This document shows positions 27,831 to 33,581 of a stretch of DNA of 33,581 nucleotides, one piece after another. Source of the DNA: Chloroflexota bacterium (GTDB lineage: Bacteria > Chloroflexota > Limnocylindria > Limnocylindrales > CSP1-4); contig JANXWH010000202.1 of the NCBI GenBank assembly GCA_025351245.1, positions 1 through 33,581 on the forward strand. Reading direction: 5' to 3'. The position numbers and the translations under genes were made by a program. Each line of letters opens with the position of its first letter. Position 1 is the first letter of the stretch. The notes under the pieces were generated by a model. The model worked only from the letters and a program-made list of their open reading frames with translations. It had not been told where the DNA came from and did not search any database.

Positions 27831-29666
27831 GTGGCCATCGACCCCAACCAGGAATTCCTCGTCCAGCCGGTCGACGCGTCGTGGTTGCAGTGCAACATCG
27901 AGTGCCAGGAAGCCTGCCCGGTTGGCACGAACTGCCGCGGCTACCTCAACCTGGCCGCCGAGGGCCGGTTCGAGGAGGGCTACCTCCTCTCGCGTGAGCC
28001 CAACCCGGTTGCCGCCATGTGCGCGTACGTCTGCTCGGCGCCCTGCGAGCGCGCCTGCCGGCGCGGTGACATCGACCGGCCACTCGCGATCCGGGCGATG
28101 AAGCGGTTCCTCGTCGAATGGCACGAGGCCTCGGGGATCCCGGACGTCATCCCGCAGATCACGTTGCGCGACGAGCGCGTCGCCGTCGTCGGAGCCGGGC
28201 CGGCCGGCATCGCGGTCGCCCATGAGCTCGCGGTCAAGGGGTACCGCGTGACCGTCTTCGACAGTCTCCCGTTCGCGGGGGGCACGATGCTGATCGGCGT
28301 CCCGGCCTTCCGACTGCCGCGCGAGGCGATCGAGATGGACGTCCGGCTCGTGGAGCGGCTGGGGGTCACGTTCAGGTACAACACGAAGATCGGGCCGGAC
28401 ATCAGCTTCGAGACGCTCCTGCGCGACTTCGACGGGATCGCGATCTGCGCCGGAGCGATGGACGCCGTCGGGCTGGACATCCCCGGCGCCGAGCTGGCCG
28501 GCGTGCAGTACGGCGTCGACTTCATGAAGAAGGCCAACCTGGGCGAGCCGCTCGAGGTCGGCCGCAACGTCGTCGTGGTCGGCGGTGGCTACACCGCGAT
28601 GGACTGCTCGCGGACCAGCCTCCGGCATGGTGCCGAGAACGTCACCATCGCCTACCGCCGCACCCGCTCGGAGCTCGTCGTCGACGAGGAGGAGCTGGGC
28701 GAGACGGAGCGCGAGGGCGTCCAGATGGAGTTCCTCGTCAGCCCGATCGAGCTGCTGGGCGAGGACGGGAAGCTGACCGGCGTCCGCTTCATCCGCAACA
28801 AGCTTGGCGAGCCCGACGCTTCCGGCCGCCGTTCGCCGGTCCCGATCCCCGGCTCCGAGTTCGTGGTCCCCGCCGATTCCGTCATCCCGGCCGTGTCGCA
28901 GGCCGCGGACCTCAGCTTCCTGCCCGTGGAGGCGACCTTCGAGGTCGCCCGCGGCCGCCTCAAGGTGGACCCCGCGACGTACGCCACGAACGTGCGCGGC
29001 GTCTTCGCCGCCGGCGACTTCGTGACCGGCCCGGCGACGCTCATCGAGGCCGCCGGCCACGGCAAGAAGTGCGCCTACGCGATCGACCGGTACCTGGGCG
29101 GGCGAGCCGACGTGACCGTGGCCGCCAACGTGAAGATCACCTCGTCGTGGCGCCACGACATGCCGGAGTACTACGACGTGCTGCCGCGCCAGCACATCCC
29201 GATGCTGCCGGTCGAGGCGCGGATGGCGTCCCGCGAGCCGGAGGTCAACTTCACGACCGGCGTGGAGCTGGGCTACAGCGCGACCCAGGCCGTCGCCGAA
29301 TCCACGCGCTGCCTGATGTGCAACTACAACATCTGGTTCGATCCATTCCGGTGCGTCCTGTGCGGCGCCTGCGCCGACGTCTGCCCGGAGGGCGTCATCC
29401 ATATGATCGATGTCAACCAGATGAAGTCCGAGGGGTTCCTGCCGGAGCTCGAAGAGGCGTACGGCTGGGAACAGGGTGCCGCCATGATCCTTGACGAGGA
29501 GCGCTGCATCCGCTGCGCCCTCTGCGTCAAGCGGTGCCCGTTTGACGCCATTACGATGGAGCGGTTCGAGCTCCAGGAGATCTCGACCGACGGTCGCCTC
29601 TACAAGGAGTCGTACCGGGACGCGCAGCTTGCCGGCACGCCCGGCGTCGCAGGAGGAGCCAGGTGA
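27831..29666 (+). CDS. GltD-like FAD/NAD(P) oxidoreductase with N- and C-terminal iron-sulfur modules
   Basis: Flavoprotein of 611 aa. The N-terminal Fer4_20-like module has cysteines 21, 25, 29, 35 and 64, 68, 72, 76 (CNIECQEACPVGTNC; CAYVCSAPCERAC). The FAD site is VVGAGPAGIAVAHE (GxGxxG near 121). A second Rossmann motif, VVVVGGGYTAMDC, should bind NAD(P)H. GVFAAGDFVTGPATLIEAAGHGKKCA is the FAD-closing motif. The C-terminus carries two [4Fe-4S] ferredoxin motifs (Cys508, 511, 514, 518 and 559, 562, 565, 569). The fold is that of glutamate synthase small subunits, but no large subunit is near. It overlaps cytochrome b by 4 nt, so an electron-input role for that complex is inferred. GTG 27831 is chosen where homology begins. 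Confidence 0.88.
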   Translation: MAIDPNQEFLVQPVDASWLQCNIECQEACPVGTNCRGYLNLAAEGRFEEGYLLSREPNPVAAMCAYVCSAPCERACRRGDIDRPLAIRAMKRFLVEWHEASGIPDVIPQITLRDERVAVVGAGPAGIAVAHELAVKGYRVTVFDSLPFAGGTMLIGVPAFRLPREAIEMDVRLVERLGVTFRYNTKIGPDISFETLLRDFDGIAICAGAMDAVGLDIPGAELAGVQYGVDFMKKANLGEPLEVGRNVVVVGGGYTAMDCSRTSLRHGAENVTIAYRRTRSELVVDEEELGETEREGVQMEFLVSPIELLGEDGKLTGVRFIRNKLGEPDASGRRSPVPIPGSEFVVPADSVIPAVSQAADLSFLPVEATFEVARGRLKVDPATYATNVRGVFAAGDFVTGPATLIEAAGHGKKCAYAIDRYLGGRADVTVAANVKITSSWRHDMPEYYDVLPRQHIPMLPVEARMASREPEVNFTTGVELGYSATQAVAESTRCLMCNYNIWFDPFRCVLCGACADVCPEGVIHMIDVNQMKSEGFLPELEEAYGWEQGAAMILDEERCIRCALCVKRCPFDAITMERFELQEISTDGRLYKESYRDAQLAGTPGVAGGAR

Positions 29667-30391
29667 GTTTCCTGGAGCGGGTGGATCAGACGATCCGGCG
29701 GAGCCCCGTCTTCCGGTCCATCTTCCGCAACCCGTACCCCAACGACGAGCGGTCGCGGGCGTACGCGGTCATGAACAACGTCTTCCTGCACCTGCACCCG
29801 GTCCGCGTGCGCCAGCACGCTGTCAAGTTCGCCTACACGTTCTGCCTGGGCGGGCTGAGCTTCTTCCTCTTCCTCGTGCTGACCGTGACCGGCGTCTACC
29901 TGATGTTCTTCTACGCCCCGTCGGCGACCCAGGCGTACTCGGACATCCTGCGGATCCAGGCCGAAGTGCCGTTCGGGCTCCTGACCCGGAACATCCACCG
30001 GTGGGCGGCCCACCTCATGGTCTTCTTCGTCTTCCTCCACATGATGCGGGTCTTCTATCACGGCGCGTACAAACCACCCCGCGAGTTCAACTGGGTGGTC
30101 GGCGTGGTCCTGCTCTTCCTGACCCTGTTCCTCAGCTTCACCGGCTACCTGCTGCCGTGGGACCAGATCGCCTACTGGGCCATCACGATCGGCTCCAACA
30201 TGGCCGGCTACGCGCCGCTCTTCAACACGCCGTCCAAGATCCTGCTCCTGGCCGGGCTGGAGGTCAGCGGCAACACGCTCCTGCGCTTCTACGTCCTCCA
30301 CATCATGGTTTTCCCGCTGGTCGCTGCGGTCTTCCTGGCGGTGCACTTCTGGCGCATCCGCAAAGATGGCGGGATCAGCGGGCCGCTATGA
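29663..30391 (+). CDS. Cytochrome b6-like subunit of a Rieske/cytochrome b complex
   Basis: Integral membrane haem protein of 242 aa with four helices, matching cytochrome b6 rather than full-length cytochrome b. Haem b ligands are His112/His126 and His213/His228. The 14-residue spacing in the second pair is the b6f-type pattern. FCLGG places Cys61 where b6 binds the extra haem c(i) covalently. PWDQIAYWA (165-173) and the final RKDGGISGPL are b6 signatures. It oxidises quinol, sending one electron to the Rieske protein and one across the membrane. GTG 29663 overlaps the upstream stop (GTGA), with AGGAGGAG a few bases upstream. Confidence 0.95.
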   Translation: MSFLERVDQTIRRSPVFRSIFRNPYPNDERSRAYAVMNNVFLHLHPVRVRQHAVKFAYTFCLGGLSFFLFLVLTVTGVYLMFFYAPSATQAYSDILRIQAEVPFGLLTRNIHRWAAHLMVFFVFLHMMRVFYHGAYKPPREFNWVVGVVLLFLTLFLSFTGYLLPWDQIAYWAITIGSNMAGYAPLFNTPSKILLLAGLEVSGNTLLRFYVLHIMVFPLVAAVFLAVHFWRIRKDGGISGPL

Positions 30392-30991: not shown

Positions 30992-31660
30992 ATGAGCAAC
31001 TACCACGTGGAGCCCGCCAGCACGCCCCAGGCCCTCACGAGCGAGGCGCTCAAGTCGATGCGCACGGAGGCCCCGAAGGGCCTCTCGCGACGGCAGCTCC
31101 TCCGAACGTCGCTCGGCGCCGGCGTGGGCCTCTGGCTCCTGGAGGTGTCCGCGGGCACCCTGGGGTTCCTCTGGCCAAACCTCTCCGGCGGCTTCGGCGG
31201 CAAGGTGGAGATCGGCAAGCTCCAGGACATCAAGAACACGAACTCCGCGCTGCCGATCGGGGACGGCTTCCCGGCCTACTACCAGGAGGCTCGCGCCTTC
31301 ATCATGCTCATCGATCCCGCCCGCCAGGCGTTCATCCCCGGCGAAGACCGTTCCGGCGACGGCACGGCGCTCAACGTCCGCGCGCTCTACCAGCGCTGCC
31401 CCCACCTGGGCTGCAAGCCGAACCCGTGCCAGAAGAGCTTCTGGCTCGAATGCCCGTGCCACGGCTCGCGCTACGATCGCCTGGGGACGAAGGTCAAGGA
31501 GCTTGGGCCCGCGCCGCGCTCCATGGACCGGTTCGGCGTGATCGTCCAGGCCGACGGGAAGCTGTTCCTCGACACCAGCAAGATCACGCTTGGGCCCCTG
31601 CCCGTGGCACTCGGCCAGCCCGGCCTCATCCCGTCAAAGAGCCCGACCGGCTGCATCTGA
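30992..31660 (+). CDS. Rieske iron-sulfur protein
   Basis: Membrane-tethered [2Fe-2S] protein of 222 aa that takes an electron from quinol at the b subunit and hands it to cytochrome c or cupredoxin. The cluster motifs are CPHLGC (136-141: Cys136, His138, disulfide Cys141) and CPCHGS (Cys154, disulfide Cys156, His157). An extra Cys146 is present. SRRQLLRTS followed by GAGVGLWLLEVSAG gives a twin-arginine-type signal anchor that is probably uncleaved. ATG 30992 lies 7 nt after the subunit IV stop; the open frame upstream overlaps that gene and is not used. Confidence 0.95.
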   Translation: MSNYHVEPASTPQALTSEALKSMRTEAPKGLSRRQLLRTSLGAGVGLWLLEVSAGTLGFLWPNLSGGFGGKVEIGKLQDIKNTNSALPIGDGFPAYYQEARAFIMLIDPARQAFIPGEDRSGDGTALNVRALYQRCPHLGCKPNPCQKSFWLECPCHGSRYDRLGTKVKELGPAPRSMDRFGVIVQADGKLFLDTSKITLGPLPVALGQPGLIPSKSPTGCI

Positions 31661-31690: not shown

Positions 31691-32641
31691 ATGACCAACC
31701 AGCCCGGCCAGCGCCCGGAAGAGCGCCTGCCCGTCCCACGCGCGCCGTCCGAAGTCGTCCCGTCTACCGGGGTCGCCCCGTCGACCGAGCGGTTCACCGC
31801 GCACCCGAGCGCGCACAAGTCCGGGCTGTCGCCGGAACGCGCCGCGAAGATCGTCACCCAGAGCGCCAGCGCCCGCTGGGTCGCCTTCCTCGCCGTCTCG
31901 ATCGTGGCGCTGTTCGTGATCGTCTACTACTTCTACGACCTGGGCGTGCCGGGTGTGGCTAATTCCAGCCGCCTCCAGAAGGAGGTCGCGGTCCAGCAGG
32001 TCACCGACGTGGCTCGCGGCTACAAGCTCTTCGAGGCGAACTGCGCGCGCTGCCACGGTGCCCAGGGGCAGGGCGGGATCGGGCCGGTCCTGAACGACCA
32101 GGCGAAGCTCCTCACCCACCTGACGCCCAAGTACCTGACCACGGTCCTCACGGTTGGCGGCCGCTACGTCTGCGGTGACGCCGCCTCCCTGATGCCCGCC
32201 TGGCTGGAGCCAAACGGTCCGCTCAACTACCGCGAGCTGGAGGAGCTCGTCGCATTCATCCGGGCGCCCTCGACGCTGGCGTACGACGGCATCGACCCCG
32301 CGACCGGCCTCACGACGACGCTGAAAGGCTGGCGCGACCCGACGTTCGCGCCGGCCCCGAGCTCGAAGCCCGTTCCGAACTGTTGGAAGGACGCCTTCGC
32401 GTCTCCGTCGGCCGCCCCGAGCGCAGGGGCGAGCGGCGCCCCGGGCGCGGCGGCGAGCGGCGTGCCGAGCGCGGCGCCCTCGGGCAGCCCGGCCGCCTCG
32501 CCCGCCGCGTGGCGGCGCCGCCGGCACGGTCCTCGAGCTCACGGCCTCCGGCATCGCATTCGACAAGGCCGACCTGACCGCCCCGGCCGGCGTCCCGTTC
32601 CAGATCAAGTTCACGAACAACGATGCGGGGATCCCGCATAA
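31691..32641 (+). CDS. Membrane-anchored cytochrome c, apparently cut off from its cupredoxin domain
   Basis: Monohaem cytochrome c, last subunit of the operon. A polar N-terminus of about 60 residues is followed by one transmembrane helix (WVAFLAVSIVALFVIVYYF), then a class I cytochrome c domain with CARCH (Cys118, Cys121, His122) and Met168 in SLMPAW as likely sixth ligand. After PNCWKDAF comes a Ser/Ala/Pro/Gly linker (about 235-275). Near 32508-32511 the frame changes from sensible linker to Arg-rich nonsense ending at 32641. A cupredoxin continues in another frame. The intended product is probably a cytochrome c-cupredoxin fusion of about 370 aa spanning 31691-32807. Confidence 0.85.
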   Translation: MTNQPGQRPEERLPVPRAPSEVVPSTGVAPSTERFTAHPSAHKSGLSPERAAKIVTQSASARWVAFLAVSIVALFVIVYYFYDLGVPGVANSSRLQKEVAVQQVTDVARGYKLFEANCARCHGAQGQGGIGPVLNDQAKLLTHLTPKYLTTVLTVGGRYVCGDAASLMPAWLEPNGPLNYRELEELVAFIRAPSTLAYDGIDPATGLTTTLKGWRDPTFAPAPSSKPVPNCWKDAFASPSAAPSAGASGAPGAAASGVPSAAPSGSPAASPAAWRRRRHGPRAHGLRHRIRQGRPDRPGRRPVPDQVHEQRCGDPA

Positions 32642-32807
32642 CGTCGCGATCCACAAGGACTCGCCGAGCGGCGAGGTGGTCTGGCAGGGCGAGATCTTCA
32701 ACGGGACCGACACCCGGACGTACGACGTCCCGGCGCTCCCCGCCGGCACGTACGGCTTCAGCTGCACGGTCCACCCGAACATGACGGGGACGCTCACGGT
32801 CAAGTAG
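32511..32807 (+). CDS. Cupredoxin domain, out of frame with the upstream cytochrome c
   Basis: About 98 residues (from GGAAGTVLELTASG to TGTLTVK-stop) of a type 1 copper domain. Copper ligands are visible as PHNVAIH, then the C-terminal cluster YGFSCTVHPNMTG giving Cys, His and Met. There is no in-frame ATG, GTG or TTG and no ribosome binding site upstream. The preceding linker in the cytochrome frame runs straight into it if one base is dropped at 32508-32511. The domain is therefore best read as the C-terminus of the cytochrome c gene, separated by a real frameshift, a slippage site or a sequencing error. It would accept electrons from the haem and pass them to a terminal oxidase or other partner. 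Confidence 0.75.
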   Translation, partial: GGAAGTVLELTASGIAFDKADLTAPAGVPFQIKFTNNDAGIPHNVAIHKDSPSGEVVWQGEIFNGTDTRTYDVPALPAGTYGFSCTVHPNMTGTLTVK

Positions 32808-32864: not shown

Positions 32865-33581
32865 ATGAGCGAGAACGTCTGCTACGTCGACGCGTACGCC
32901 CGGAGCATCGAGGCGCGACTCCGTGCCGTGGAGCCGCCCGCCGCCGAGGGCAGAGGAGCCATGGTGCTCCTGGACCGGACTGTCTTCTACCCTGGCGGCG
33001 GGGGGCAGCCGGCGGATCGCGGCGTGCTGCGGACAGCGGACGGCAGGGCCTGGCAGGTGGTCGCCGCGCGCAGGCAGGGTGAGGAGATCTGGCACGAGCT
33101 GGAGCCCAGCACAGAGCCCCCGGTGCAGGGCGAACTCGGCGGGTCGGGCCCGTCGGTCATCTTCACCGCCGACCTGGACTGGGAGCGCAGGTTCCGCCTG
33201 ATGCGGACCCACACCGCGCTCCATGCGCTCTGCGGAGTGGTGTGGCGCGACTACAACGCGCTGGTGACGGGCGGGAACATGGAGCCCGGCGGCGGCCGGA
33301 TGGACTTCGAGTTCGCGCGGATGTCCGGTGAGCTCGTCGGCGCGATCGAGTCCGCGGTGAACGAGGAGCTCCTCCGCAGCCGCGACGTCCGCGTCAACGT
33401 GCTCCCGCGCGAGGAGGCCGTCGCGATCCCGGACCTGATCCGGACGAAGGTGAACCTCCTGCCGGACGGCATCGAGCAGATCCGGACGATCGAGATCGTC
33501 GGGCTCGACCTCCAGGCCGACGGCGGCACCCACGTCGCGAACACCCGGGAGGTGGGCACGATCCGCATGACCGGCTACGAG
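32865..33581 (+). CDS. Alanyl-tRNA editing protein AlaX, partial at window edge
   Basis: Free-standing relative of the AlaRS editing domain that hydrolyses mischarged Ser- or Gly-tRNA(Ala). The first 239 codons are present; the frame is open to the window end. The N-terminal beta-barrel has LLDRTVFYPGGGGQPADRG. The zinc site includes RTHTALHALCG (HTALH) and LQADGGTHVANTREVG, where many relatives have a Cys in place of the Asp before GGTH. ATG 32865 is fixed by a TACTGT box 6 nt upstream. Only the last residues are missing judging from usual AlaX-S/M lengths (about 215-245 aa). Independent of the respiratory operon. Confidence 0.9.
   Translation, partial: MSENVCYVDAYARSIEARLRAVEPPAAEGRGAMVLLDRTVFYPGGGGQPADRGVLRTADGRAWQVVAARRQGEEIWHELEPSTEPPVQGELGGSGPSVIFTADLDWERRFRLMRTHTALHALCGVVWRDYNALVTGGNMEPGGGRMDFEFARMSGELVGAIESAVNEELLRSRDVRVNVLPREEAVAIPDLIRTKVNLLPDGIEQIRTIEIVGLDLQADGGTHVANTREVGTIRMTGYE

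Follow-up and report, generated by a model that had tools for sequence, protein, structure and literature searches.

The stretch of DNA analyzed here (the window; 33,581 nucleotides) is a contig of an apparently metagenome-derived Chloroflexota genome and carries, on its forward strand, genes of a bc-type cytochrome complex. The N-terminal part of cytochrome b (positions 29663 to 30391; Pfam Cytochrome_B, 7.8e-44) lies upstream in the same cluster as the gene for a Rieske iron-sulfur protein (30992 to 31660; Pfam Rieske, 3.3e-08), and behind the latter the ATG at 31691 opens a cytochrome c frame. This in-frame part (31691 to 32509; Pfam cytochrome c) encodes a transmembrane helix, a CARCH heme site, and the start of a Ser/Ala/Pro/Gly linker (32403 to 32509), part of which recurs in a lipoprotein gene on contig C239 of the same assembly. 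A cupredoxin domain with its stop codon follows at 32535 to 32807 in a different frame (Pfam Cupredoxin_1, 7.7e-12, and Copper-bind, 1.3e-07); it contains the His, Cys, His, and Met of the expected copper site, residues that we take to be the copper ligands. The last gene, cut by the contig end, encodes an alanyl-tRNA-editing (AlaX-like) protein (32865 to 33581; Pfam tRNA-synt_2c, 5.4e-08, and tRNA_SAD, 3.5e-06).

The reading frame is broken at 32510 to 32511. Translation bore out the preliminary description, according to which the cytochrome linker is good to about 32507 and Arg-rich thereafter, with the cupredoxin in the frame reached by skipping one base: the cytochrome frame is sensible up to the codon at 32507 to 32509, continues with TGG and an Arg-rich run, and stops at 32639 to 32641, and the cupredoxin frame (ELTASGIAFDK...CTVHPNMTGTLTVK), one base further on, is open up to the stop codon at 32805 to 32807. 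The motifs reported at the junction are also where they had been placed, with CCGCC at 32502 to 32506, GCGT at 32507 to 32510, GGCGG at 32511 to 32515, and the 12-bp palindrome GGCGGCGCCGCC at 32511 to 32522. Alignment with C239 revealed that two bases are missing between 32510 and 32511, and the window has two bases fewer than the orthologue in genome G001 at the same site. A CxxCH cytochrome and a cupredoxin in one open frame behind the Rieske gene are not found on the window contig. Read literally, the break would suggest that a respiratory chain has lost a copper domain or relies on recoding, but neither is needed to account for it.

The window was compared with 29 cytochrome loci of other genomes (L009 to L037), the named relatives being metagenome-assembled Chloroflexi, some of them labelled "Candidatus Limnocylindrales." The Rieske gene precedes the cytochrome c gene at all 29 loci. 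By alignment, cytochrome and cupredoxin share one open frame at 28 of them, and at the other (L009) the contig stops before the cupredoxin; the fusion is therefore the usual form of the gene, and a frameshift is required in none of the relatives. The order Rieske protein, cytochrome c, cupredoxin, and kelch protein was found at 26 of the 29 loci, the remaining 3 ending at the cupredoxin or earlier. A wider survey, in which 107 of 140 genomes of the family were searched, gave 66 cytochrome matches, 59 of them with a kelch gene no more than 2.5 kb downstream. The kelch-repeat membrane protein (Pfam) encoded at positions 319 to 1824 of contig C87 in the window's own assembly, G000 (L052), is with its homologues the standing neighbor of the bc-complex cytochrome. 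An AlaX gene lies downstream of the cytochrome in 1 of the 66 matches, that of the window alone. Six matches have neither neighbor: three are on contigs that end at the linker-cupredoxin cassette, two have a contig end at a distance of 4 bases (G014:C29) and 112 bases (G021:C124), and the one in G013 is partial, with its remainder on another contig ahead of a kelch gene.

In other genera the AlaX-like gene belongs to the locus of a cupredoxin lipoprotein. In G019, G016, and G009 a LuxR-type regulator gene and the gene of a stand-alone cupredoxin lipoprotein stand ahead of it, and in G020 a stand-alone cupredoxin gene does. At six loci (L061, L064, L065, L067, L069, and L072) AlaX follows LuxR and no cupredoxin was detected, at three more (L062, L070, and L071) neither LuxR nor cupredoxin was found ahead of it, and the contigs of G005 and G003 start or stop within the cupredoxin. 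The two halves of the window contig, in other words, have different conserved neighbors in relatives. An independent start for the cupredoxin had been named beforehand, together with reads uniformly supporting the base count, as a refutation; this was half right, in that the other locus (C239 and G019) does carry a stand-alone cupredoxin lipoprotein.

The missing halves of both loci are present in the same assembly, broken in the repeat that they share. Contig C87 (10.5 kb) has its start within a cupredoxin, where it is 97% identical to window positions 32546 to 32807 (9 mismatches in 262 bases), and reads on into the kelch gene. Contig C239 (27 kb) carries LuxR and the lipoprotein gene, in which this linker and cupredoxin recur, and breaks off within the cupredoxin; over its final 99 bases it agrees fully with window positions 32547 to 32645 (0 conflicts in 99), like a k-mer overlap. 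At its two ends the window overlaps other contigs imperfectly, C175 with positions 1 to 324 (309 bases, 97%) and C22 with positions 33511 to 33581 (71 bases, 98.6%), which points to strain mixture in the bin.

We consider it likely that the window joins two loci through their shared linker-cupredoxin cassette, that this is a mis-join of the assembly, and that the frame break arose as a defect in the region of the seam. Sequence to the left of about 32546 would be the bc-complex operon, with cytochrome b, the Rieske protein, and cytochrome c with its linker, and sequence to the right would be the end of the cupredoxin lipoprotein gene and its usual neighbor, the AlaX-like gene, the lipoprotein locus likely entering with the 99 bases shared with the broken end of C239. 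Near-identical cassettes allow a short-read assembly graph to pass from locus to locus, and with nearly identical copies at both loci of this genome the graph would have crossed between them. In the simplest pairing, the cytochrome would be joined to C87 and C239 to AlaX, and the window contig would cross from one to the other. In the cell, the cytochrome gene most likely forms a single open frame extending into C87, with the cupredoxin and then the kelch gene, and what lies to the right of the break is probably part of the lipoprotein-cupredoxin/AlaX locus. As a biological feature, then, the confirmed frame break is most likely an assembly seam, and since it likely lies at a mis-join, it says little about the gene of the living cell.

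It has been reported that k-mer graphs may hold paths present in no genome (PMC8172020). Mis-joined k-mer contigs at repeats are like the window in that the join falls within a repeat that exceeds the k-mer in length and the partner contigs are broken in the same repeat, with strain mixture; the repeat of the window differs in being a protein domain shared by respiratory genes and not an rRNA operon or mobile element. The case illustrates how a homogenized protein domain can interrupt metagenome contigs and perhaps mis-join them; adjacent gene order at such domains is therefore not trustworthy without reads.

The exact position of the seam cannot be set, as the linker is shared too: from 32403 to 32472 the window and the lipoprotein linker of C239 are identical at 70 of 70 bases, and beyond 32472 the two copies differ in length by 39, 12, and 2 bases. 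Placing the seam by the linker failed because in G002 as well the linkers are common to both genes. The gap at 32510/32511 is 36 bases to the left of the point where C239 merges with the window. Base 32546 agrees with C87 and G001 and not with C239, so the two-base gap may sit in true cytochrome sequence. Seam and gap appear to share one cause.

Exchanged joints are also found in two sister species, both in an open frame. Contig C293 of G002 (L152) has LuxR, lipoprotein, cupredoxin, and kelch in one open frame, a joint of the deletion type, and contig C37 of G005 (L156), which begins with cytochrome-like sequence, stays in frame across a cupredoxin and leads to AlaX, a joint of the circle type. 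The exchanged joints in the window, G002, and G005 could be the same error made three times or a real rearrangement. Real recombination between the two near-identical cassettes is a rather unlikely origin of the window joint. A crossover between direct repeats would leave the deleted chromosome with a lipoprotein-cupredoxin-kelch joint, and a circle or tandem duplication with a cytochrome-cupredoxin-AlaX joint; on this view the window would be of the circle or duplication type, with the frameshift in a spare copy. Apart from the window, all six contigs that carry both genes have AlaX and the cytochrome on one strand, with AlaX 49 to 98 kb upstream, which makes the cassettes direct repeats whose recombination would give both exchanged joints. 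After a duplication the two ordinary joints would persist as well, in line with C239 and C87. These six contigs come from other genera, however, and it is from those and not from the window's genus that the direct-repeat arrangement is known. The window, G002, and G005 are all fragmented assemblies with contigs breaking in the same repeat, whereas all 58 family contigs outside the genus that carry the cytochrome and kelch genes together have ordinary joints, including those of G019, whose copies are 98 to 99% identical; in the window's genus, G001 is the sole case of an ordinary joint. A mis-join is preferred for two reasons: exchanged joints are confined to fragmented assemblies whose contigs break at that repeat, and in G019, where such similar copies lie on contigs of more than 100 kb, both ordinary orders are kept. 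We infer that the join is an assembly error and not a real recombination joint. A simple real exchange, in which C239 would continue into C87, is weakened by 3 conflicts in their 100 overlapping bases, although strain variation could give these.

The joints in the window, C37 of G005, and C293 of G002 would also be real if the cassette were a portable, continually homogenized domain that doubles as a recombination site, which we hold to be unlikely. Its copies, lying about the bc-complex region as nearly identical direct repeats, would in that case recombine to give real deletions, circles, or tandem duplications of that region.

It is very doubtful that the contig is right and that a real two-base deletion has cost this strain's cytochrome gene its copper domain. 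The agreement of base 32546 with C87 and G001, by which the gap may sit in true cytochrome sequence, would fit such a deletion, as would a cupredoxin part still well preserved, as after a recent mutation; the changed downstream gene, C87, and C239 are left unexplained by it, however, and none of the 29 relative loci has such a break. The lost copper domain that the preliminary description had offered as one outcome finds no support beyond the window contig.

A local base-call or consensus error in a G+C-rich hairpin, on a contig otherwise correct, is highly improbable. The palindrome and its G+C-rich flanks are in its favor, but the wrong downstream neighbor would need a separate cause, and C239, a copy from the same genome, carries the identical palindrome in frame, so the palindrome does not explain the frame break. 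It occurs once in the window against 0.20 occurrences expected by chance and is not very unlikely there, as 20 of 100 shuffles had at least one copy. The hairpin is rejected as the sole cause; an intact gene with a wrong sequence was the better half of the initial alternatives, but hairpin compression is probably not what produced it. The sole point in favor of ribosomal frameshifting is the overlap of the two open frames. It can practically be dismissed, together with the recoding envisaged at the outset, since a single frame encodes the fusion in 28 of the 29 relatives and none needs a frameshift, so that nothing conserves a frameshift site; no conserved slippery site could be defined.

The linker-cupredoxin cassette occurs at four kinds of locus, namely, cytochrome c, CoxB, an oxidase-adjacent membrane protein, and the lipoprotein. 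Paralogues within a genome were found to be more alike than orthologues between genomes in G000, G005, and G019. The three copies of G019 (L043, L108, and L110) reach their 98 to 99% identity in genes that are otherwise unrelated, and in this one genome the limits of the tract are sharp, with about 330 bases from the linker to the stop codon between unrelated flanks. The copies of G000 (window 32403 to 32807, L052, and L053) are 96.5% identical to each other versus 86 to 88% to those of G001 and G002. Identities within G005 and G024 are 97.6% over 123 and 165 bases, respectively, and three contig ends of G003 (L153 to L155) share 118 to 127 exact bases; in most other genomes the copies are only 56 to 81% identical. 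Short contig-end fragments, which gave misaligned values near 30%, were excluded from these within-genome identities.

Trees were built from 44 copies, after short fragments, copies of unclear locus, and C293 of G002 had been dropped; the window contig (C21 of G000) was labelled lipoprotein and C87 of G000 cytochrome, in keeping with a mis-join. On the 44-copy tree, whose support values are rough, the locus label changes 20 times (least possible, 3; shuffled mean, 22.6; 19 of 200 shuffles as low), and all 8 lipoprotein copies stand apart. The genome label changes 24 times (shuffled mean, 29.8; 0 of 300 shuffles as low) and, with G000 and G019 removed, 21 times (shuffled mean, 24.5; 4 of 300 shuffles as low). 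The copies on the tree thus group by genome more than by locus. Identities and tree together look like domain-limited concerted evolution by gene conversion, and through such homogenization the bc-complex, oxidase, and lipoprotein copper carriers may stay alike.

Domain-limited gene conversion has been described for the methanogen genes mtrA-1 and mtrA-2 (PMC4632066). As with mtrA, one domain is homogenized in paralogues that fusion has made different elsewhere; in contrast to mtrA, the homogenized unit is a linker-cupredoxin cassette that sits at as many as four kinds of locus (bc complex, oxidase, membrane protein, and lipoprotein), and conversion is read here from identities and the tree. 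A literature search on cupredoxins with cytochrome bc, on Limnocylindria, and on gene conversion or fusion in Chloroflexi, at the level of titles and abstract openings, found no paper on this cytochrome-cupredoxin fusion or its homogenization. Among solved structures, the window cupredoxin matches plastocyanin (1pla; 8.5e-08), auracyanin A (2aan; 2.7e-07), and amicyanin (1id2; 2.3e-05); unlike these, the domain is here fused behind cytochrome c or CoxB or forms a lipoprotein with a Ser/Ala/Pro linker.
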